From the NCBI GenBank assembly GCA_027063065.1, contig JAMOSO010000022.1, forward strand, positions 1 to 13,714: 13,714 nucleotides of DNA, in the 5' to 3' direction. Shown piece by piece: positions 1-12,644 of this stretch. The first letter of the stretch is position 1; each line of letters opens with the position of its first letter. The notes under the pieces were generated by a model, which saw nothing but the letters and a program-made list of their open reading frames with translations, was not told the DNA's origin and ran no database searches. The position numbers were made by a program, and so were the translations under genes. The stretch is from Planctomycetota bacterium (lineage in GTDB: Bacteria > Planctomycetota > JAMOSO01).

Positions 1-602
1 GTGGATCGGGCAAATCTACTTTATTAAAGGCAATTGCTAATTTATTGCCAATTAAGGGTGGACATATTAATTTTGCGGATAAGTCAAAACATATACAGAT
101 GGTTTTTCAAGATCCACGCTCGTCTTTGGATTCTAAAATGATTGCAGTAGATATCATCGCGGAGCCTTTGTTAAATTTTAAGATATGCTCTAAAGATCAA
201 GCCTATAAATTGGCTTTAGAAATGATGAAGAAGGTTAAATTAGATATAGAAAGTGCTAATCGTTTTCCGCATGAATTTTCTGGTGGTCAATGTCAGCGCA
301 TAGGTATAGCCAGAGCTTTAATCTTAAAACCGTCTTTATTGTTGTGTGATGAGCCTGTTTCGGCTTTAGATGTTAGTATTCAGGCGGAAATTTTAGATTT
401 GTTGATTGAGTTACAGCAAGACTTAAACCTTTCTATGTTATTTGTGTCTCATGATTTGGCGGTAGTTCGCTCTATTGCTCATCGTGTTGCAGTAATGTAT
501 CGCGGTCAGATTGTAGAGGTTAAATCAGCAGATGATATTTATACAAAACCTACTCATAATTATACTAAAGAGCTACTTTCAGCCATACCAGTTATCCCGT
601 AA
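1..602 (+). CDS. Opp/Dpp-type ABC importer ATPase, C-terminal part
   Basis: This is the nucleotide-binding subunit of a peptide-type ABC importer and would power uptake through the inner membrane. The gene is cut by the window edge. Reading from base 3, the first visible codons give GSGKSTLLKAIANLL, so the window starts inside the Walker A motif and the open frame continues upstream of the first possible TTG at 45. After that come a Q-loop (MVFQDPRSSLD, Gln codon at 108-110), an ABC signature (FSGGQCQRIGIARAL), a Walker B (LLLCDEPVSALD) and an H-loop (FVSHDLAVV). The VSALDVSIQAEIL and THNYTKELLSAIP wording is typical of OppF/DppF. The protein stops right after SAIPVIP, so the usual oligo_HPY extension of DppF/OppF is missing. 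It could be a separate subunit or the second half of a fused YejF/GsiA-type ATPase; the missing 5' end would decide. A murein-peptide substrate is inferred only from the genes downstream. Confidence 0.93.
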   Translation, partial: GSGKSTLLKAIANLLPIKGGHINFADKSKHIQMVFQDPRSSLDSKMIAVDIIAEPLLNFKICSKDQAYKLALEMMKKVKLDIESANRFPHEFSGGQCQRIGIARALILKPSLLLCDEPVSALDVSIQAEILDLLIELQQDLNLSMLFVSHDLAVVRSIAHRVAVMYRGQIVEVKSADDIYTKPTHNYTKELLSAIPVIP

Positions 603-627
603 TGGTTTTGGTTTATTGTTTTAATAT

Positions 628-639
628 TTAAGTGCTTAA
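628..639. repeat. Short palindrome TTAAG-TG-CTTAA between ABC gene and recycling cluster
   Basis: This is a perfect 5 bp inverted repeat with a 2 bp centre, inside the 69 bp gap before the Mur ligase gene. It is not followed by a run of T, so it is not a convincing terminator. The same core, AAG-CA/TG-CTT, recurs at 12522-12529 and 12652-12659, in front of popT and the porin gene. A protein-binding site is possible, but this is inference from three copies. Confidence 0.3.
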
Positions 640-671
640 TCAAATCTATTAAAAAGCCGATACAGTGATTT

Positions 672-2042
672 ATGGATAAAAAACATTATTTTTTTGTTGG
701 TTTAGGTGGTAGTGGTATGTCGGCCATTGCTCAGTATCTTGTGATGCAAGGGCATACGGTATCGGGCTCTGATCGCAGTTTTGATAACAATCAAAATAAT
801 GATGTAAAACAAGTATTACAGAATTTACAAATAAATATTTATCCACAAGATGGCAGTGGAGTGTCTGCCTCGGTAGATACTTTAGTTACATCTACAGCTA
901 TAGAGGCTAGTATTCCAGATGTTAAACGCGCTTTAGAATTAAACATAACAATTATTAAGCGTGCGCAGATATTGGCAGATATTCATAATAAATCCATTGG
1001 TGTTGCAGTAGGTGGCACAAGCGGTAAAAGCACTGTTACGGGTATGTGTACGCATATTTTACGTCAATTAGATGCTAATCCTTCTGTTATTAATGGTGGT
1101 TTATTATTAAATGTGTTACAAGAAAACTTACCAGGTCTTGGCAATGTTATTTGCGGTGACGGGGCTTGTGTTGTAGAGGCCGATGAAAGTGATGGTTCGA
1201 TAGAGCTTTATAATCCAGCGGTGGCAATTGTTACTAATATTAGTTTAGATCATAAACCACTTGCACAATTACGTCCTCTTTTTAAAGACTTTATACATAG
1301 AGCTTCTATAGGCGCAGTTGTTAATGCCGATTGTTTAGAAACTATGGCATTAGTTGGCAATCAAAATATTTTAACTTTTTCGACTAAACGTAAAGCTGAT
1401 TTATACGCTTGTGATATTACGCCGATTTTAGGTGGCGTTAGGTTTAAACTAAACAACCAAATAGTAAATTTGCAAGTTTTAGGCAAGCATAATGTATCCA
1501 ATGCGTTATCAGCCATTGCCGCTGTGTCATTGTTAGGTTATCCCATTGCCGCCGCCGCTAAGGCGTTGGAATCTTTTATGGGAATACGTCGCCGTTTAGA
1601 ATTAATTACAAAAATAAATGATATAACGATTATTGATGATTTTGCTCATAATCCCGACAAAATAACTGCTAGTTTAGAGGCGTTACAAGAATATTCAGGA
1701 CGATTAATAATTATGTTTCAGCCCCATGGTTTTGGTCCTACTAAATTTTTACGACATGGCTTAGTCGATGCTTTTGCACAAGGTTTAAAACCAGAGGATA
1801 TCCTTTATATGCCAGAAATTTTTTATGCTGGTGGCAGTGCCGTTAAAGATATTTCATCCGAAGACTTATGCAACGATATTAAATGTTGTGGCAAGTTAGC
1901 TATTTTTTGTAACGAAGGACGTAATCAAATTTTGCAAGAAATTAAAAAACAACTTAAACCAAAAGACCGTATTGTGATTATGGGTGCGAGAGACAATTCG
2001 TTAAGAGATTTCGCCTTAGAAATAGCAAACTCTTTGATATGA
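672..2042 (+). CDS. mpl: Mur ligase of the MurC/Mpl group, probable murein peptide ligase
   Basis: This is a cytoplasmic ATP-dependent ligase of the Mur family. Mpl joins recycled L-Ala-D-Glu-mDap tripeptide to UDP-MurNAc; MurC adds L-Ala only. All three Mur domains are visible: an N-terminal UDP-binding fold (FVGLGGSGMSAIA at residues 8-20), a central ATPase (GTSGKST at 115-121, EADESDG at 169-175, then TNISLDH) and a C-terminal domain (DDFAHNPDKI from 322, FQPHGFGP from 349). Its 456 residues are close to E. coli Mpl (457) and shorter than MurC (491). Unusual points are GTSGKST where MurC and Mpl usually have GTHGKTT, and AHNPDK where they have (A/G)HHPT. The start is the first ATG after the ABC gene; no good Shine-Dalgarno sequence is seen. 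The stop overlaps the ldcA start (ATGA). The Mpl role is inferred mainly from the neighbours LdcA, NamZ and MurU-AmgK. A paralogous MurC or a ligase with another peptide substrate remains possible. Confidence 0.8.
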   Translation: MDKKHYFFVGLGGSGMSAIAQYLVMQGHTVSGSDRSFDNNQNNDVKQVLQNLQINIYPQDGSGVSASVDTLVTSTAIEASIPDVKRALELNITIIKRAQILADIHNKSIGVAVGGTSGKSTVTGMCTHILRQLDANPSVINGGLLLNVLQENLPGLGNVICGDGACVVEADESDGSIELYNPAVAIVTNISLDHKPLAQLRPLFKDFIHRASIGAVVNADCLETMALVGNQNILTFSTKRKADLYACDITPILGGVRFKLNNQIVNLQVLGKHNVSNALSAIAAVSLLGYPIAAAAKALESFMGIRRRLELITKINDITIIDDFAHNPDKITASLEALQEYSGRLIIMFQPHGFGPTKFLRHGLVDAFAQGLKPEDILYMPEIFYAGGSAVKDISSEDLCNDIKCCGKLAIFCNEGRNQILQEIKKQLKPKDRIVIMGARDNSLRDFALEIANSLI

Positions 2043-2806
2043 CAAAGACTATAGCCTTAATTTCTCCTGCTTCACCAGTGAGTCCTAATGATGTGTTAGA
2101 AGGTAAAAATTTTTTAGAAGCTCGTGGGTATGATGTTATCGAATCTCCATATTTATATGACGTTGAAAGGTTTTTAGCTGGAGATGATATTTCTAGGGCT
2201 AAAGAATTTATGTGGGCATGGTGTCAAGATGGTATTGATTTAATTATTGCTGTTCGTGGCGGTTATGGCTCGCAGCGTATTTTGCCATATTTAGATTGGA
2301 ATGAGATAAAAAAACATAACAAATTATTTTTTGGATTTAGCGATATTACTGCTTTGCAACTGGCTTTGCTTGCCAAGTCCAATAAGCCTTCGTATAGCGG
2401 TTTTGTTTTGGTTGGTAGTGAAGGTCAAAATCGACAGGGGTTAATCGATATTATTGAAGATACAGTCAAGCCTGCAAAATATGTGGGCGGATGTTTGTCT
2501 TTGGTTTGCAGTTTGTTGGGTAGTGAATATCTGCCATCTTTTACCGACTCTAATATTTTATTAGAGGACGTCGGAGAAAAACCTTATCGTATAGATAGGA
2601 TGTTAAGTTCTTTGGACTTAGCAGGTTGTTTTGATGGTTGTAATTCGGTCACTTTTGGCAGTTTTAAAGATTGTTACTCGACAGATACGCAAGATGGCAC
2701 TATTGGTGATGTTTTAAAATATTGGCAGAACAAAATAACTAAACCCGTATATTTAAAAACAACTTATGGTCATGGCGCAGGAGAAATTATTAAATGTCAG
2801 TATTAA
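2039..2806 (+). CDS. ldcA: Muramoyltetrapeptide LD-carboxypeptidase (peptidase family S66)
   Basis: LdcA removes the terminal D-Ala from murein tetrapeptide in the cytoplasm, giving the tripeptide that Mpl reuses. Family marks are an N-terminal ALISPASPV, the RGGYGSQRILPYLDW block, the nucleophile motif GFSDIT (Ser101), GGCLSLVCSLLGSEYLP, the LLEDVGEKPYRIDRML block that carries the catalytic Glu (E176 or E180), and a C-terminal YGHGAGE with the catalytic His (H245). The Ser-Glu-His set is therefore complete. At 255 residues it is shorter than E. coli LdcA (about 304). The loss seems to lie between the Ser block and the GGCLSL block and at the C-terminus. There is no signal peptide. The start ATG overlaps the ligase stop by 4 bp, and the gene end overlaps the namZ start by 13 bp, so translation is probably coupled. 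Confidence 0.93.
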   Translation: MTKTIALISPASPVSPNDVLEGKNFLEARGYDVIESPYLYDVERFLAGDDISRAKEFMWAWCQDGIDLIIAVRGGYGSQRILPYLDWNEIKKHNKLFFGFSDITALQLALLAKSNKPSYSGFVLVGSEGQNRQGLIDIIEDTVKPAKYVGGCLSLVCSLLGSEYLPSFTDSNILLEDVGEKPYRIDRMLSSLDLAGCFDGCNSVTFGSFKDCYSTDTQDGTIGDVLKYWQNKITKPVYLKTTYGHGAGEIIKCQY

Positions 2807-3963
2807 CTGGTTTGCAACAAGTTAAAAATAAATGGCCCATACATCTTAAAGGAGCAAAGGTAGGTTTGGTCTGTCATCCGGCTTCTATTGATAATGAATA
2901 TAATCATGCTGTAGATATATTTCAAAAGGCAGATTTTTGCAAATTAACGACATTATTTGGGCCTCAACATGGAATCAAAGGGCATACGCAGGATAATATG
3001 ATTGAGTGGGAGGGTGGCATAGATGCAGTAACAGGTTTAAAATTATATTCGTTATACGGTAAACATAGGCAACCAACCGAGCAAATGTTTGCAAATTTAG
3101 ATGCGATTGTTATTGATTTGCAAGATGTTGGTGCCAGATATTATACTTTTATTTGGACTATGGATTTGATTTTTAAAACTGCCCAAGCCTGTGGAATTGA
3201 GGTTGTTGTATTAGATAGACCAAACCCCATTAATGGTATTGATATTGAAGGTAATGTTTTACAAAAAGGTTTTGAATCATTTGTAGGTTTGCGTCCATTG
3301 CCTATGCGCCATGCAATGACTATAGCAGAAATTGCCAATTATTTTGCAGGAGAATTTTATCCAAGTTTAAAATTAAATCTTATTTTGATGCATAGTTGGC
3401 AACGAGAAATGTTTTTTGATGAAACAAACCTACCGTGGGTTATGCCTTCACCAAATATGCCAACATTAGATACGGCTATAGTTTATCCAGGTGGATGTTT
3501 GTTAGAGGCAACTAATGTCAGTGAAGGACGTGGCACAACTAGACCGTTTGAAATAATCGGCGCACCTTGGATTGATGCAGAAAATTTAAGTGCCAAACTT
3601 AAATCAAAGCAATTATCGGGTTTGCAAGTTAGACCTGTTGGATTTCAACCAACTTTTCAAAAATATGCCAATGAGTTGTGTTTTGGTGTTCAATTACATG
3701 TTGTCGATAGAAAAACATTTAAATCAGTGGAGGCTATTACAGCTATTTTTGATATACTAAAGGATGCATATCCCGATAAATTTCAGTGGAAAAACCCGCC
3801 TTACGAATACGAGTACACAAAGTTGCCAATAGATATTTTAGCTGGTTGTAGCGACTATCGTGTGCGTATAGATGCACAAACTTCGTGGCAAGCAATGGTT
3901 GATAGTTATCGTTTGCAAATAGATATCTTTAATAAAACACGCCAAAAATATTTGCTTTATTAG
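2794..3963 (+). CDS. namZ: Exo-beta-N-acetylmuramidase NamZ (DUF1343, GH171), no signal peptide
   Basis: NamZ of Bacillus subtilis (YbbC) releases MurNAc from the non-reducing end of peptidoglycan fragments and founds glycoside hydrolase family GH171. This protein has the DUF1343 landmarks in order: GLVCHPASID, LFGPQHGIKG followed by QDNMIEWEG, IDLQDVGARYYTFIWTMD, LDRPNPING, FVGLRPLPMRHAMTIAEIA, SPNMPTLDTAIVYPGGCLLEATN and SEGRGTTRPFEIIGAPW. Its 389 residues match a complete enzyme domain. The N-terminus (MSVLTGLQQVKNKW) has no hydrophobic export signal. An in-frame TAA (2791-2793) lies directly before the ATG, so the start cannot be moved upstream. A cytoplasmic place of action is therefore likely, unlike the secreted Bacillus enzyme. 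AGGAG at 2779-2783, inside the end of ldcA, serves as the ribosome-binding site. The usual PEHG of many members reads PQHG here. The next gene starts 2 bp after the stop. Confidence 0.92.
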   Translation: MSVLTGLQQVKNKWPIHLKGAKVGLVCHPASIDNEYNHAVDIFQKADFCKLTTLFGPQHGIKGHTQDNMIEWEGGIDAVTGLKLYSLYGKHRQPTEQMFANLDAIVIDLQDVGARYYTFIWTMDLIFKTAQACGIEVVVLDRPNPINGIDIEGNVLQKGFESFVGLRPLPMRHAMTIAEIANYFAGEFYPSLKLNLILMHSWQREMFFDETNLPWVMPSPNMPTLDTAIVYPGGCLLEATNVSEGRGTTRPFEIIGAPWIDAENLSAKLKSKQLSGLQVRPVGFQPTFQKYANELCFGVQLHVVDRKTFKSVEAITAIFDILKDAYPDKFQWKNPPYEYEYTKLPIDILAGCSDYRVRIDAQTSWQAMVDSYRLQIDIFNKTRQKYLLY

Positions 3964-3965
3964 TT

Positions 3966-5579
3966 ATGTCAGGTATTAATTTATTTATTGCTGCTGCTGG
4001 ATATGGTTCAAGATTAGCACCATTAACTGATGAGATACCTAAGCCGTTAATAAAAGTAAATAATATTCCTGCGATAGATTATGTTTTAATGCATGCTTAT
4101 AGTAGTTTTGTTTTAAATAAAATTGTGATTAATACCCATCACTTGGCAGAACAAATAAGGCGATGGGCAAATAAAAGTTTATTGTCTAGCCAGATACATT
4201 TATTGTATGAAAGTCAAATCCTGGGTACTGGTGGAGCGTTGGCAAATGCAAAATCTGTATTGCAATCAGGTACAACACTTGTGTTAAATTCTGATGTTAT
4301 ATCTGATATGGATTTGGTTTCTATGTATGAATATCATCAAGTAAATCAAAATGACATTACTTTGGCAATCGACAGTAATGCACGCCATAAGACTGTTGGC
4401 TTGGATGTTAATGGTTGTTTGGTATGTGTGGGGTTGGATAATGATGTCGATAAACAAGTGGATAGGTGGGTAGGTTTTGCATGTGCGGCTTTATATCAGC
4501 CAAAATTTATTAGTTTATTGCCCGATGGTAATTCTCACGTAGTAAGTGCTTGGTTAAAGGCAAAACAATTAAATTTTAAAATAGGTACATGGGATATTGG
4601 CAATTGCTATTGGTGTGATATAGGTACTTTGCAGGATTTAGAAACTGCAAATATATATTTAAAAAAACATAGAATTGATTTTTATCCTAACGATAGATTT
4701 TTAAAAAATCGTAAGCCTAAATTTTTGGGTTCAGGGGGTGGCAATAGATGTTATTATCGCTGTCAAGATAGTTTATTGTCTTCTTCGCCATTAGATGATG
4801 AAGATATTTATTTTCAGGTTGAGCATACAGAGTTTTTTTTAGCAGCAGGTTTAAATGTTCCTAAAATATATGAAGTTGATTTTCCAACCAAAAGATTATT
4901 ATTGCAAGATTTGGGTGATATAACTTTACAGCAAGCACCAACATTGTCTAATTATAAAAAAACTTTAGATCAGTTATTTATTTTACATAGTTTAAATCCA
5001 AAAGATTGTTTTAAATTAAATAGTAGATGTTTAGATTATGCAATGTTACAGTGGGAATCGTCATATTTTAAAAAATATCATTTAGAGACCAGTTTAGATG
5101 ATATAAATTTGCAAAAGGAATTTGATTATTTAGCTAGTGAAGTATCTAAAATTCCAACTGGCATTATTCATCGAGATTGTCAAAGCCAAAATGTTATGCT
5201 TTTTGATAATCAAGCTTGGTTTATTGATTTTCAAGGAGCTAGACGAGGGGCGGTATTGTATGATTTAGCATCATTGCTAAGAGATCCTTATGTGGATATT
5301 TCTGATATGTATTTAGAATTGGTAGATTATTATTATTTTAAATTAAAACAAGTCAAGCATACTGCAATGAATAATTTTAAACGCAATTTACGTTTTTGTG
5401 GTATTCAACGGCATTTACAGGCCTTGGGTGCTTATGGGTTTTTAAGTACAGTTAAGGGTAAGCCGCAATATTTAAAATATATAAAACCGGCTTTAAATTA
5501 TTTGCTTAATGAGTTAGGCGATGATTTTCCTGCGATTAAGCAAGCATTATTAATTAAAAATAATAATCAATTTATTTGA
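3966..5579 (+). CDS. murU-amgK: Fused MurNAc-1-phosphate uridylyltransferase (MurU) and MurNAc/GlcNAc kinase (AmgK)
   Basis: One polypeptide holds two recycling activities. Residues 1 to about 225 form a sugar-phosphate nucleotidyltransferase: AAAGYGSRLAPLTDEIPKPL (catalytic Arg16 and Lys26), ESQILGTGGAL, then LNSDV for metal binding and WCDIGT near its end. From about residue 250 onward comes an aminoglycoside-phosphotransferase-fold kinase: GGGNRCYYRC, LLLQDLGD, the catalytic loop HRDCQSQN (H402, D404, N409), IDFQGARRG (metal-binding D421) and YDLASLLRD, which is a strong AmgK signature. Family knowledge: AmgK makes MurNAc-alpha-1-phosphate and MurU converts it to UDP-MurNAc, bypassing de novo synthesis through MurA. 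In Pseudomonas these are two adjacent genes; here they are joined in the order MurU then AmgK, with a linker of about 25 residues. It starts 2 bp after namZ, and its last 8 bp overlap the end of mutS on the other strand. The exact sugar preference is inferred. Confidence 0.9.
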   Translation: MSGINLFIAAAGYGSRLAPLTDEIPKPLIKVNNIPAIDYVLMHAYSSFVLNKIVINTHHLAEQIRRWANKSLLSSQIHLLYESQILGTGGALANAKSVLQSGTTLVLNSDVISDMDLVSMYEYHQVNQNDITLAIDSNARHKTVGLDVNGCLVCVGLDNDVDKQVDRWVGFACAALYQPKFISLLPDGNSHVVSAWLKAKQLNFKIGTWDIGNCYWCDIGTLQDLETANIYLKKHRIDFYPNDRFLKNRKPKFLGSGGGNRCYYRCQDSLLSSSPLDDEDIYFQVEHTEFFLAAGLNVPKIYEVDFPTKRLLLQDLGDITLQQAPTLSNYKKTLDQLFILHSLNPKDCFKLNSRCLDYAMLQWESSYFKKYHLETSLDDINLQKEFDYLASEVSKIPTGIIHRDCQSQNVMLFDNQAWFIDFQGARRGAVLYDLASLLRDPYVDISDMYLELVDYYYFKLKQVKHTAMNNFKRNLRFCGIQRHLQALGAYGFLSTVKGKPQYLKYIKPALNYLLNELGDDFPAIKQALLIKNNNQFI

Positions 5580-8326: not shown

Positions 8327-10264
8327 ATGTCGTTATTAGAGCAAATTATAACTTATGGTCCTGGCATTATTGCTGCGGTTTGTGGTTTTTCGTTAGTAGT
8401 TTTTATTCATGAGTTAGGGCATTTTTTGTTGGCAAAAAAAGCAGGGGTGCGGGTACATGTTTTTTCTATAGGCATGGGTAAGCGTATATGGGGTAAAAAG
8501 ATAGGCGATACTGATTATCGTATTGCTATGATTCCACTAGGTGGATATGTGCAAATGGCAGGTCAGGAGGACACTCCAGGAGCAGAGGAATTAACAGGTG
8601 CCGAGTGGGAATATCCTAGCAAAAGTGTTACTCAACGGATGCAGATAATTTCTGCAGGTGTTGTTTTTAATTTTTTATCTTCTTTTGTGTTTTTGTTTGT
8701 GGCAGCTTTGATTGGCATAACTTTTAAAGCTCCCGTAGTTGGTGATTTGCAGGATGGTTCGCCGGCACAACGCGCTGGATTGCATGCTGGTGAGAGGATT
8801 ACTAATTTAAATGATAAGCCTGTAAGGTCTTTTGAAGAATTAGCCGAGATGGTTGTGTTTCACGGCACTGAAAAACCATTAAGTTTGACTCTGGTTAAAG
8901 ATGGTAAGTCTCGTAAAGTACAATTGACTCCTGTTAAAGGTGCGTCTTCACCTGTACCTACCATAGGCGTAGCTCCAGCTCAAGGGACAACAATTTTGGG
9001 TATATCTCCACAGGGCGTAGCAGCAAAGGCCGGTCTTAAAAATGATGATAAAATTATATCAGTGGCAGGTGTAAAGGTTGAGTTTTGGTCAGAAGTTCAA
9101 AAATTATTTAATAAGTATGAAAATAAGCCAATTGAAATTATTGTAGAACGTAAAGGAAAAACCTTATCTTTTAATTTGATACCGCAAAGGGCGTTTGAAG
9201 TTTCAGGTGGCTTTGAATTTGGAGTGCCAGCAGTAATTAGTGAGGTTGCCGACGGCTATCCAGCTCAAGCGGCAGGCTTAAAGGCTGGTGATAAAGTTAC
9301 AGCAATAGATGGGCAGTCGGTGTCTAATTGGGCTCAAATGAGCAAAATTATTCAGTCTAAAAAAGAACAACCATTTACTATTACAGTTGAACGTAATGGG
9401 GCATTCTTATCTACTAGAGTAACTCCTAAGATAGATCCTGCCAGTTTACGTAGTATTATAGGAATTAGTTATAACGAAAAATCATTAAGTTCCAGATGGC
9501 AACGGTTTGTTTCTCGTGATGATTTAAATTTTGCATCTGTGTTGGTTACGCAGGTTCAAAAGGATTCTCCATCGTGGAAAGCGGGTTTGCGTGCTGGGGA
9601 TAGAATTATCAAAGTCAATTCAAAGGTTGTTAATTCTCGCATAGATTTAGCTAAGGCGTTAAACAATGCATATCAAAAAGTTGATTTACATTCTAAAGTA
9701 CCAGCAGTGTCTTTGACGTATATTCGCAATGGTCGTAATTACAATATTAGTTATGTAGGTGTCGCTAAAATACCATCGTATACAGATGATAGTGATATAG
9801 AATTAAACCCTGTTGGTATAGGGGTTGTATGTGATTATAAATCAGAGCTAGTGAAATTTGGTTTTGTCGAGTCACTTAAATACGCATTGACAGAGCCTTT
9901 AGCTATATTAGATCGTACTTATAGAACTTTCTTCAAGTTGGGCACGGGTGAGCTTTCTCCAAAGTTATTGGGTGGGCCTGTGATGATTTTTAAATATTCA
10001 TATAAAAAATACGTAGATGGATTGGGTAGTTTATTGTGGTTTTTAGCTTTAATCAGTATTAATTTAGCTGTGATTAATATTTTGCCAATACCTGTTATGG
10101 ATGGCGGACATTTAGTTTTGCTGATAATTGAAAAAATAAAAGGTTCGCCTATTAGTATGAAGGCTCAAGTAGCTTATCAGTATGTAGGGGTGGCATTTAT
10201 ATTGGTGTTGTTACCATTTGTAATGTTTAATGATATTATGCGTGAGCTCGGGATAGCGTGGTAG
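8327..10264 (+). CDS. rseP: RseP-type site-2 intramembrane metalloprotease with four PDZ domains
   Basis: This is an inner-membrane zinc protease that cuts transmembrane segments; in E. coli it releases sigma-E by cleaving RseA. The active site is intact: HELGH at residues 28-32 in the first membrane segment, followed by MIPLGGYVQMAGQ, and near the C-terminus NILPIPVMDGGHL (about 584-596), whose Asp completes zinc binding. The remaining membrane segments lie at about 105-127, 565-585 and 618-638. Between them are four PDZ-like units, each with a SPAQRAGL/AGD-type core, starting near residues 136, 220, 301 and 404. E. coli RseP has two PDZ domains in 450 residues; this protein has 645. The extra length is all in the PDZ region. 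The ATG is preceded by a weak AGAGA. It is the first gene of a likely pair with the CNNM gene 16 bp downstream. No anti-sigma factor is visible in the window. Confidence 0.94.
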   Translation: MSLLEQIITYGPGIIAAVCGFSLVVFIHELGHFLLAKKAGVRVHVFSIGMGKRIWGKKIGDTDYRIAMIPLGGYVQMAGQEDTPGAEELTGAEWEYPSKSVTQRMQIISAGVVFNFLSSFVFLFVAALIGITFKAPVVGDLQDGSPAQRAGLHAGERITNLNDKPVRSFEELAEMVVFHGTEKPLSLTLVKDGKSRKVQLTPVKGASSPVPTIGVAPAQGTTILGISPQGVAAKAGLKNDDKIISVAGVKVEFWSEVQKLFNKYENKPIEIIVERKGKTLSFNLIPQRAFEVSGGFEFGVPAVISEVADGYPAQAAGLKAGDKVTAIDGQSVSNWAQMSKIIQSKKEQPFTITVERNGAFLSTRVTPKIDPASLRSIIGISYNEKSLSSRWQRFVSRDDLNFASVLVTQVQKDSPSWKAGLRAGDRIIKVNSKVVNSRIDLAKALNNAYQKVDLHSKVPAVSLTYIRNGRNYNISYVGVAKIPSYTDDSDIELNPVGIGVVCDYKSELVKFGFVESLKYALTEPLAILDRTYRTFFKLGTGELSPKLLGGPVMIFKYSYKKYVDGLGSLLWFLALISINLAVINILPIPVMDGGHLVLLIIEKIKGSPISMKAQVAYQYVGVAFILVLLPFVMFNDIMRELGIAW

Positions 10265-11332: not shown

Positions 11333-12466
11333 CTAAGTATTTTTTTTGCCAATTTGTATTAGTTTCCAAGAAATTACAATGCCTATTAAACAACAAATTA
11401 TTGGTATTGTAATTTGATGAAATTCAGGAAGTTTATTACCTGCCATAGGTAACCATTTTACTTTTTCATTGATAGTTATATGCAGGCTGTCTAATTTTTC
11501 TTTGGTTGGCATAACTTTAAATGGCCATAAAACATATAGACTACCAATTACCATGCCAGTTAGACCAGCCATTGTGATGTTGTGATATTGTTGTAATGAC
11601 CAGTTTATTACCCGTGAAAATACTAGCAGGCCTATTATTGCACCGCTAGCAAAACAACAGGCAAGAGCAAAGACTTCGATGGTGCTAAAACGTGATACCA
11701 ATAGCAATGCGTCGGAATGCACACTTGGATGGTGTCCAAGTAAATCATTTAATAATCTGCCTACTATCCCTAATACAAAAAAATATTGTCCCATTAATAA
11801 CAATAAATAACTACCGCTGATTCCGGGTAGCATCATGGCGCATATAGCAATCATTGCCGAAATAAATACTATTATTGCTGAAATTTTAAAGTCAAAATTC
11901 GTCCCTAAAATTGTTCCGTATTTTTGCATAATCAAAGAACAACTTACGGCAATAGTTATGCCTATCATACCGGGTATAATTAAAATGCCATCAGGTTTAG
12001 TTTTGTTAGTGTATTTATATCTGCGCTTACCCGCTTTGATAGCATTGTATGGTACAGATATGGATGGCAAAATTAATCCGATAAACAAACTTAAAGTTTC
12101 TGGAGTGTAATGAATCATTAACCAGGGTATTATTTTTGATGCAATAGCTATGGCAAAGGCTATGCCCAATAATATATATCCTAAAAAAAAGCAGTCATAT
12201 TTTTTTAAAACATCAGTAAAATTTAAATGCCTTGAATTTACTTTTCTTTCTGGCGAAATGCTTTTGCGTAGTCTAAAAAAGTGTATTACCGCATTGTTAA
12301 GCTCGGACAATAGTTCGGGACCAAGACCTTTTAAGGCGTTTATAAAGCGTTCGTATATGCCTAAAAGCAACGCCAGTGTGCCACCGCTGACCCCAGGTAT
12401 TACATCGGCAATGCCCATGGCAATTCCTTTTGGAATAGTTTGAATTAATTCTTTTTTATTAATCAT
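11333..12466 (-). CDS. popT: DUF368 undecaprenyl-phosphate translocase (PopT-like)
   Basis: DUF368 proteins (PopT) were shown in Vibrio cholerae to return undecaprenyl phosphate across the inner membrane, recycling the lipid carrier of wall synthesis. This 377-residue protein has the family's opening block (KGIAMGIADVIPGVSGGT, residues 13-30), followed by LLLGIYERFI. It also has the second, half-repeat motif MLPGISGSYLLLLMG near residue 210, and many hydrophobic segments. Between the first two segments there is a polar, basic insertion of roughly 40 residues (about 50-90), and the C-terminal part has a polar loop before the last helix. The frame opens at ATG 12514, but the extra 16 residues (IFVDDYKRN...) are polar and absent from the usual family start, so ATG 12466 was chosen. 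Neither start has a good ribosome-binding site. It converges on the CNNM gene with a 2 bp gap. A transport role is family knowledge, not shown here. Confidence 0.9.
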   Translation of the reverse strand: MINKKELIQTIPKGIAMGIADVIPGVSGGTLALLLGIYERFINALKGLGPELLSELNNAVIHFFRLRKSISPERKVNSRHLNFTDVLKKYDCFFLGYILLGIAFAIAIASKIIPWLMIHYTPETLSLFIGLILPSISVPYNAIKAGKRRYKYTNKTKPDGILIIPGMIGITIAVSCSLIMQKYGTILGTNFDFKISAIIVFISAMIAICAMMLPGISGSYLLLLMGQYFFVLGIVGRLLNDLLGHHPSVHSDALLLVSRFSTIEVFALACCFASGAIIGLLVFSRVINWSLQQYHNITMAGLTGMVIGSLYVLWPFKVMPTKEKLDSLHITINEKVKWLPMAGNKLPEFHQITIPIICCLIGIVISWKLIQIGKKNT

Positions 12467-12644
12467 ATATTTAGAATAGCATAAATTACGCTTGTAATCA
12501 TCAACAAAAATCATCGTTATTAAGCACTTTTAGTAAAGAAACTTTTTATAATATTTTTGTTTTGTACTAAAGTTATTTCAAAGGATGTCGATAAAAGAGT
12601 TTAATATTTGTTTTTGATTATTTTTAGTTTTTTTAATTTTTTAG

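Follow-up and report, generated by a model that had tools for sequence, protein, structure and literature searches.

How a Planctomycetota bacterium might reuse its own peptidoglycan is the question raised by the start of contig JAMOSO010000022.1, where adjacent genes encode the end of an oligopeptide (Opp) importer, a Mur ligase, an S66 L,D-carboxypeptidase (LdcA), NamZ and a fusion of MurU with AmgK. The stretch analysed, referred to here as the window, is the entire 13,714-bp contig (C22) of a metagenome-assembled genome (MAG) of 2.13 Mb in 71 contigs, 90.5% complete. This host genome is the sole representative of its class in the comparison set, and order- and class-level comparisons covered it alone. 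The genes probably make up a cytoplasmic cell-wall salvage operon in which a murein-peptide arm and an N-acetylmuramic acid (MurNAc) arm meet at UDP-MurNAc, with the ligase doing the job of Mpl. We also lean slightly towards regarding this ligase as representing a third type of murein peptide ligase, from a sister subfamily of MurC marked by QPHGxxP and GARD and present in Planctomycetota, Nitrospirota and Gemmatimonadota, which would attach stem peptide from recycling to UDP-MurNAc, possibly in place of Mpl, and which in the host is locked in one operon with a peptide importer and a NamZ-MurU/AmgK route supplying UDP-MurNAc.

A probable operon spread over two contigs

Since the window is a whole contig, the Opp gene at its start is truncated by the assembly. 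A search for family-5 binding proteins located contig C62, whose end and the window start share an overlap of 98 bp that contains 2 mismatches, the 32 encoded residues being identical. On its reverse strand (locus L283), C62 carries OppA (518 residues), OppB (304), OppC (429) and the beginning of the fused OppDF, spaced by gaps or overlaps of about one base, and the full order after joining is OppA-OppB-OppC-OppDF-ligase-LdcA-NamZ-MurU/AmgK. The importer link proposed in the original prediction thus holds, as do its junctions, which agree exactly with the open reading frame (ORF) coordinates: a 4 bp overlap between ligase and S66 genes, a 13 bp overlap between S66 and NamZ genes and a 2 bp gap before the fusion. 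The Opp gene ends 69 bp ahead of the ligase, and MutS follows the operon on the opposite strand. It is very unlikely that five adjacent same-strand genes from one pathway (Table 1) came together by chance. Promoter and terminator scans gave site numbers not above those of shuffled sequence, that is, within noise.

Table 1. Genes of the proposed salvage operon in the window
Feature	Position	Strand	Evidence
C-terminal part of fused OppDF ATPase (OppF end)	3-602 (listed 1..602), runs off contig start	+	ORF, Pfam, C62 overlap
MurC-like ligase of the QPHGxxP type, proposed to join murein (tri)peptide	672-2042	+	Pfam Mur_ligase N/M/C, TIGR01082/TIGR01081 scores, motifs, tree, model
S66 L,D-carboxypeptidase, LdcA type, shortened, without signal peptide	2039-2806	+	Pfam Peptidase_S66 and S66C, alignment
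NamZ, exo-beta-N-acetylmuramidase family, without signal peptide (cytosolic type)	2794-3963	+	NamZ_N and NamZ_C, PDB, tree, N-termini
MurU (residues 1-~235) and AmgK kinase (~270-537) fusion	3966-5579	+	NTP_transferase and APH in single ORF

Of the solved structures, E. coli MppA is the top match of OppA (3o9p, 320 bits; enterobacterial OppA reaches 286 bits), a result suggestive of an MppA-like murein-peptide binder rather than proof of one. In operons of this type OppC is of unusual length, a large insertion preceding its permease domain (L283:1062-2351, 429 residues; L211:4605-5978, 457 residues). Both S66 Pfam domains of the peptidase lie above gathering score (115 and 85 bits), and aligning it with L211 and E. 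coli LdcA shows the catalytic Ser, Glu and His motifs GFSD, LLEDVGE and YGHG. NamZ shows PF07075 (NamZ_N, 261.7 bits) and PF20732 (NamZ_C, 176.1 bits), both above gathering score, and matches PDB 4k05 with E 4e-70. The top NCBIfam matches of the two fusion domains are NAMPUrTaseMurU and NamurgluKinAmgK, both under cut-off, and the motifs HRDxxxxN and DFQ are present. At 537 residues, the window fusion is shorter than the Nitrospirota fusions (561-721 residues), which contain an additional stretch of some 60-80 residues in the middle; the hexapeptide-like look of this stretch may point to a left-handed beta-helix.

In the route that we propose, an exported amidase would free stem peptides outside the cell, the MppA-like OppA together with OppB-OppC-OppDF would import the free murein peptide, LdcA, judging by family and catalytic residues, would trim tetra- to tripeptide, and the ligase would join the tripeptide to UDP-MurNAc. 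In the sugar arm, going by the families of the enzymes, NamZ would release MurNAc from imported MurNAc-N-acetylglucosamine fragments, AmgK would phosphorylate MurNAc at C1 and MurU would convert the product to UDP-MurNAc, bypassing AnmK and the MurNAc-6-phosphate step.

The host genome, in which gene absences refer to targeted searches only, fits this route in part. AnmK gave no PF03702 profile match there (E. coli and four other controls were positive) and no BLAST match with the E. coli protein, and E. coli AmpG, for which the original prediction had called for a genome search, gave no BLAST match either, a profile search not having been made; with the MAG 90.5% complete, these absences are not final. 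A dispensable anhydro-MurNAc branch, as predicted, agrees with the missing AnmK, but a GH3 protein whose neighbours are an apparent alpha-fucosidase and an AraC-type regulator may have NagZ-like activity. The amidase thought to be missing could be represented by the one Amidase_2 protein of the genome; its N-terminal hydrophobic membrane or signal stretch means that peptide removal probably occurs outside the cell. The nearly self-contained salvage unit originally envisaged is supported in outline, except that no importer for a MurNAc-containing sugar was identified.

A variant overlapping this explanation, that Opp imports whole muropeptides and that an unrecognised amidase completes an all-cytosolic disassembly, appears doubtful. 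It would suit the lack of an AmpG BLAST match and the missing signal peptides of both NamZ and LdcA, and it has a precedent in Agrobacterium, where muropeptides enter through YejBEF-YepA rather than AmpG (PMC9790009). However, OppA resembles MppA, a binder of free tripeptide, and a YejABEF-like importer encoded on contig C1 is the better muropeptide candidate.

The Mur ligase and its subfamily

The best profile for the ligase is that of MurC (TIGR01082), at 302.9 bits against a cut-off of 335.1; the Mpl profile (TIGR01081) gives 130 bits against a cut-off of 388.7. The controls pass their own models (E. coli Mpl 914, E. coli MurC 609.7 and the canonical MurC of the host 440.6 bits). In MurC, L-Ala is contacted by His376, Arg377, Arg380, Tyr346 and His348 (H. 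influenzae numbering), while Mpl hallmarks include, among other residues, a (S/T)AFFDKRSK loop and EPRSNT in the C-terminal domain (PMC3060825). Where Mpl has these two motifs, the ligase carries ADESDGSIELYNP and QPHGFGPT. Both histidines of the MurC site are retained in it, Tyr346 is replaced by Phe, and Gly353 and Pro356 stand at the positions of Arg377 and Arg380. Across 26 aligned subfamily members, His352, Gly353, Pro356 and Ala439-Arg440-Asp441 are invariant. The G-loop and P-loop of the ligase resemble those of MurC, and it has no Mpl insertion. A straightforward Mpl label was ruled out by the profile score together with the missing Mpl motifs. In the canonical MurC of several families of the phylum, the position of Arg377 is occupied by Gln (QPHQxxR; L255, L256, L257, L266 and L274).

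The subfamily forms a clade apart from canonical MurC with support 99/97 (46 rows, 36 distinct sequences), in which the window sequence pairs with that of genome G017 (96/88), and its members include four genomes reached via Nitrospirota NamZ loci and one via a Gemmatimonadota locus. A canonical MurC query over 17 genomes found both types in 13, the new type only above threshold in 2 and the canonical type only in 2. The canonical enzyme thus accompanies the subfamily ligase in 13 of the 15 compared genomes that hold the latter, as well as in the host, where it has an intact QPHRxxR and adjoins murG. On the basis of profiles, motifs and tree, the ligase is neither a typical Mpl nor a typical MurC and belongs to a separate subfamily, sister to MurC and apparently uncharacterised so far. 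The predicted model (pLDDT 94) is nearest to MurC 1p3d (Z 48, 1.7 Å), with Mpl 3hn7 at Z 32; this match is evidence of fold and would not separate a MurC from an Mpl substrate.

The ligase could also be an additional MurC isozyme, attaching L-Ala, or a different single amino acid, to UDP-MurNAc from salvage, with LdcA and Opp serving peptide catabolism. The profile ranking, the closeness of the model to 1p3d and the MurC-like loops without Mpl insertion all favour such an isozyme, which we nevertheless consider unlikely: the host already has a canonical MurC, both L-Ala-contacting arginines are gone across the subfamily, and in two distant genomes the ligase is flanked by a peptide importer and LdcA. 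From the lost L-Ala contacts, the canonical MurC in the host and these flanks, a peptide is the best inference for the substrate. The tripeptide-reattaching role originally assigned to the ligase is thereby kept, outside the Mpl family.

Two modules in other genomes

For the peptide arm, the ligase was searched in 392 genomes of the phylum and 35 neighbourhoods were read. Genome G017, from a different family, has OppA-OppB-OppC-OppDF-ligase-S66 in identical order, its OppA, OppB and OppC being 48%, 54% and 43% identical to those on C62; a NamZ of G017 was not among the NamZ matches listed. Apart from G017, no Opp or S66 gene adjoins the ligase in 34 other phylum loci, nor does one in five Nitrospirota and Gemmatimonadota ligase loci.

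The sugar arm was surveyed in the 80 closest NamZ loci of named genomes, mostly Nitrospirota with fewer Krumholzibacteriota, Gemmatimonadota, Acidobacteriota and others. MurU lies downstream of NamZ in 59 of these loci and AmgK in 57, counts that are lower bounds because several loci end at contig edges. All 54 clustered MurU/AmgK ORFs share the strand of NamZ (54/54), 48 of them as a single fused ORF, so that the pairing of NamZ with AmgK and MurU, foreseen in the original prediction and confirmed by the domains in the window, recurs in other genomes. The NamZ proteins of the 80 loci are mostly without an N-terminal extension, as in the window. In the NamZ tree the window sequence falls inside a mainly Nitrospirota group (91/97), apart from the NamZ of its own phylum, and 20 regions around in-phylum NamZ genes showed no linkage to other operon genes; on the latter ground the affinity of the NamZ half seems to lie with Nitrospirota more than with its own phylum. 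In five Nitrospirota-type loci (L101, L113, L120, L126 and L159) the opposite strand encodes an AmpG homologue (53-56% to E. coli) within a few kb of NamZ-MurU/AmgK.

No Mur ligase or S66 gene was found near NamZ in the 80 loci, and the two halves do not occur together at any further locus examined. The conserved units are thus two modules, Opp-ligase-LdcA and NamZ-MurU/AmgK, which are separate elsewhere; the linkage expected in relatives is conserved for each half, but no relative examined has all the parts.

Weight of the evidence and comparison with known systems

Several findings weigh against the salvage operon with a peptide ligase. The lead of MppA is narrow, with other OppA proteins at 314-317 bits, and LdcA is short (255 residues) and scores 127.5 bits where the NCBIfam equivalog NF008424 has a cut-off of 378. 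The MAG is incomplete, and the search of it found no cytosolic amidase, its lone Amidase_2 protein looking exported. The Opp-ligase-S66 linkage is seen in two genomes only and is absent from the other ligase loci examined.

The host genome holds MurB and canonical MurC, MurD, MurE and MurF, and the DNPR motif of its MurE goes with meso-diaminopimelate. A feeding operon that imports foreign peptidoglycan debris as food, not to be rebuilt into wall, is improbable: a dedicated importer heads the operon and the GH3 enzyme lies next to an apparent fucosidase, but the products of MurU and the ligase are wall precursors rather than catabolites, and UDP-MurNAc feeds MurC-MurF, all present. A MurNAc auxotrophy as in Tannerella was ruled out by MurB and the canonical Mur ligases (MurA was not searched).

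On contig C57 of the host genome, a 734-residue ORF (L004:406-2610) fuses the chromosome segregation protein ScpA (residues 20-236) to MurD (about 257-686). Elsewhere in the window, an RseP-type protease with four PDZ stretches is encoded at 8327-10264 (+) and a member of the undecaprenyl phosphate translocase family (PopT/DUF368), a cell-wall lipid-cycle gene, at 11333-12514 (−).

MurNAc salvage of the Pseudomonas type uses AnmK, MupP, AmgK and MurU. The proposed route shares with it the AmgK and MurU domains leading directly to UDP-MurNAc and differs in their fusion, the link to NamZ, the peptide arm within the operon and an AnmK not found in the host genome. With Mpl of E. coli and Psychrobacter, the ligase shares the Mur ligase architecture, its standing as a MurC relative additional to canonical MurC and, probably, the transfer of recycled peptide to UDP-MurNAc; it has QPHGxxP and GARD of its own, is without (S/T)AFFDKRSK, EPRSNT and GI(C/G)GTFM, and lies far under the Mpl cut-off. 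The importer, with an MppA-closest binding protein and Opp permeases and ATPases, recalls the tripeptide import of E. coli by MppA/OppBCDF, except that E. coli MppA lies outside its own transport operon (PMC6022919), whereas in the host the binding-protein gene shares an operon with the ligase and LdcA. NamZ family enzymes also supply MurNAc to the scavenger Tannerella forsythia, which has its muramidases in the periplasm and no MurA/MurB (PMC10465942, PMC7670621); the host NamZ is of the cytosolic type, and MurB is present. Agrobacterium shares with the proposed pathway an AmgK/MurU route to UDP-MurNAc and has an ABC importer replacing AmpG, as may hold for the host too, though its route depends on AnmK and MupP, and the cytoplasm of A. 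tumefaciens is apparently without LdcA activity (PMC9790009).

The open-access papers searched, which leave out most of the NamZ literature, contain no account of the joined operon or the ligase subfamily. Peptidoglycan recycling is known mainly from proteobacteria, via AmpG, NagZ, AnmK and Mpl. The NamZ-MurU/AmgK cassette, often seen in Nitrospirota and relatives, offers a concrete alternative, and the ligase subfamily could account for the reuse of peptide where a typical Mpl is lacking. In the poorly sampled lineage of the host, a single proposed operon unites peptide import, trimming and probable reattachment by the ligase with a set of enzymes for reusing the sugar.

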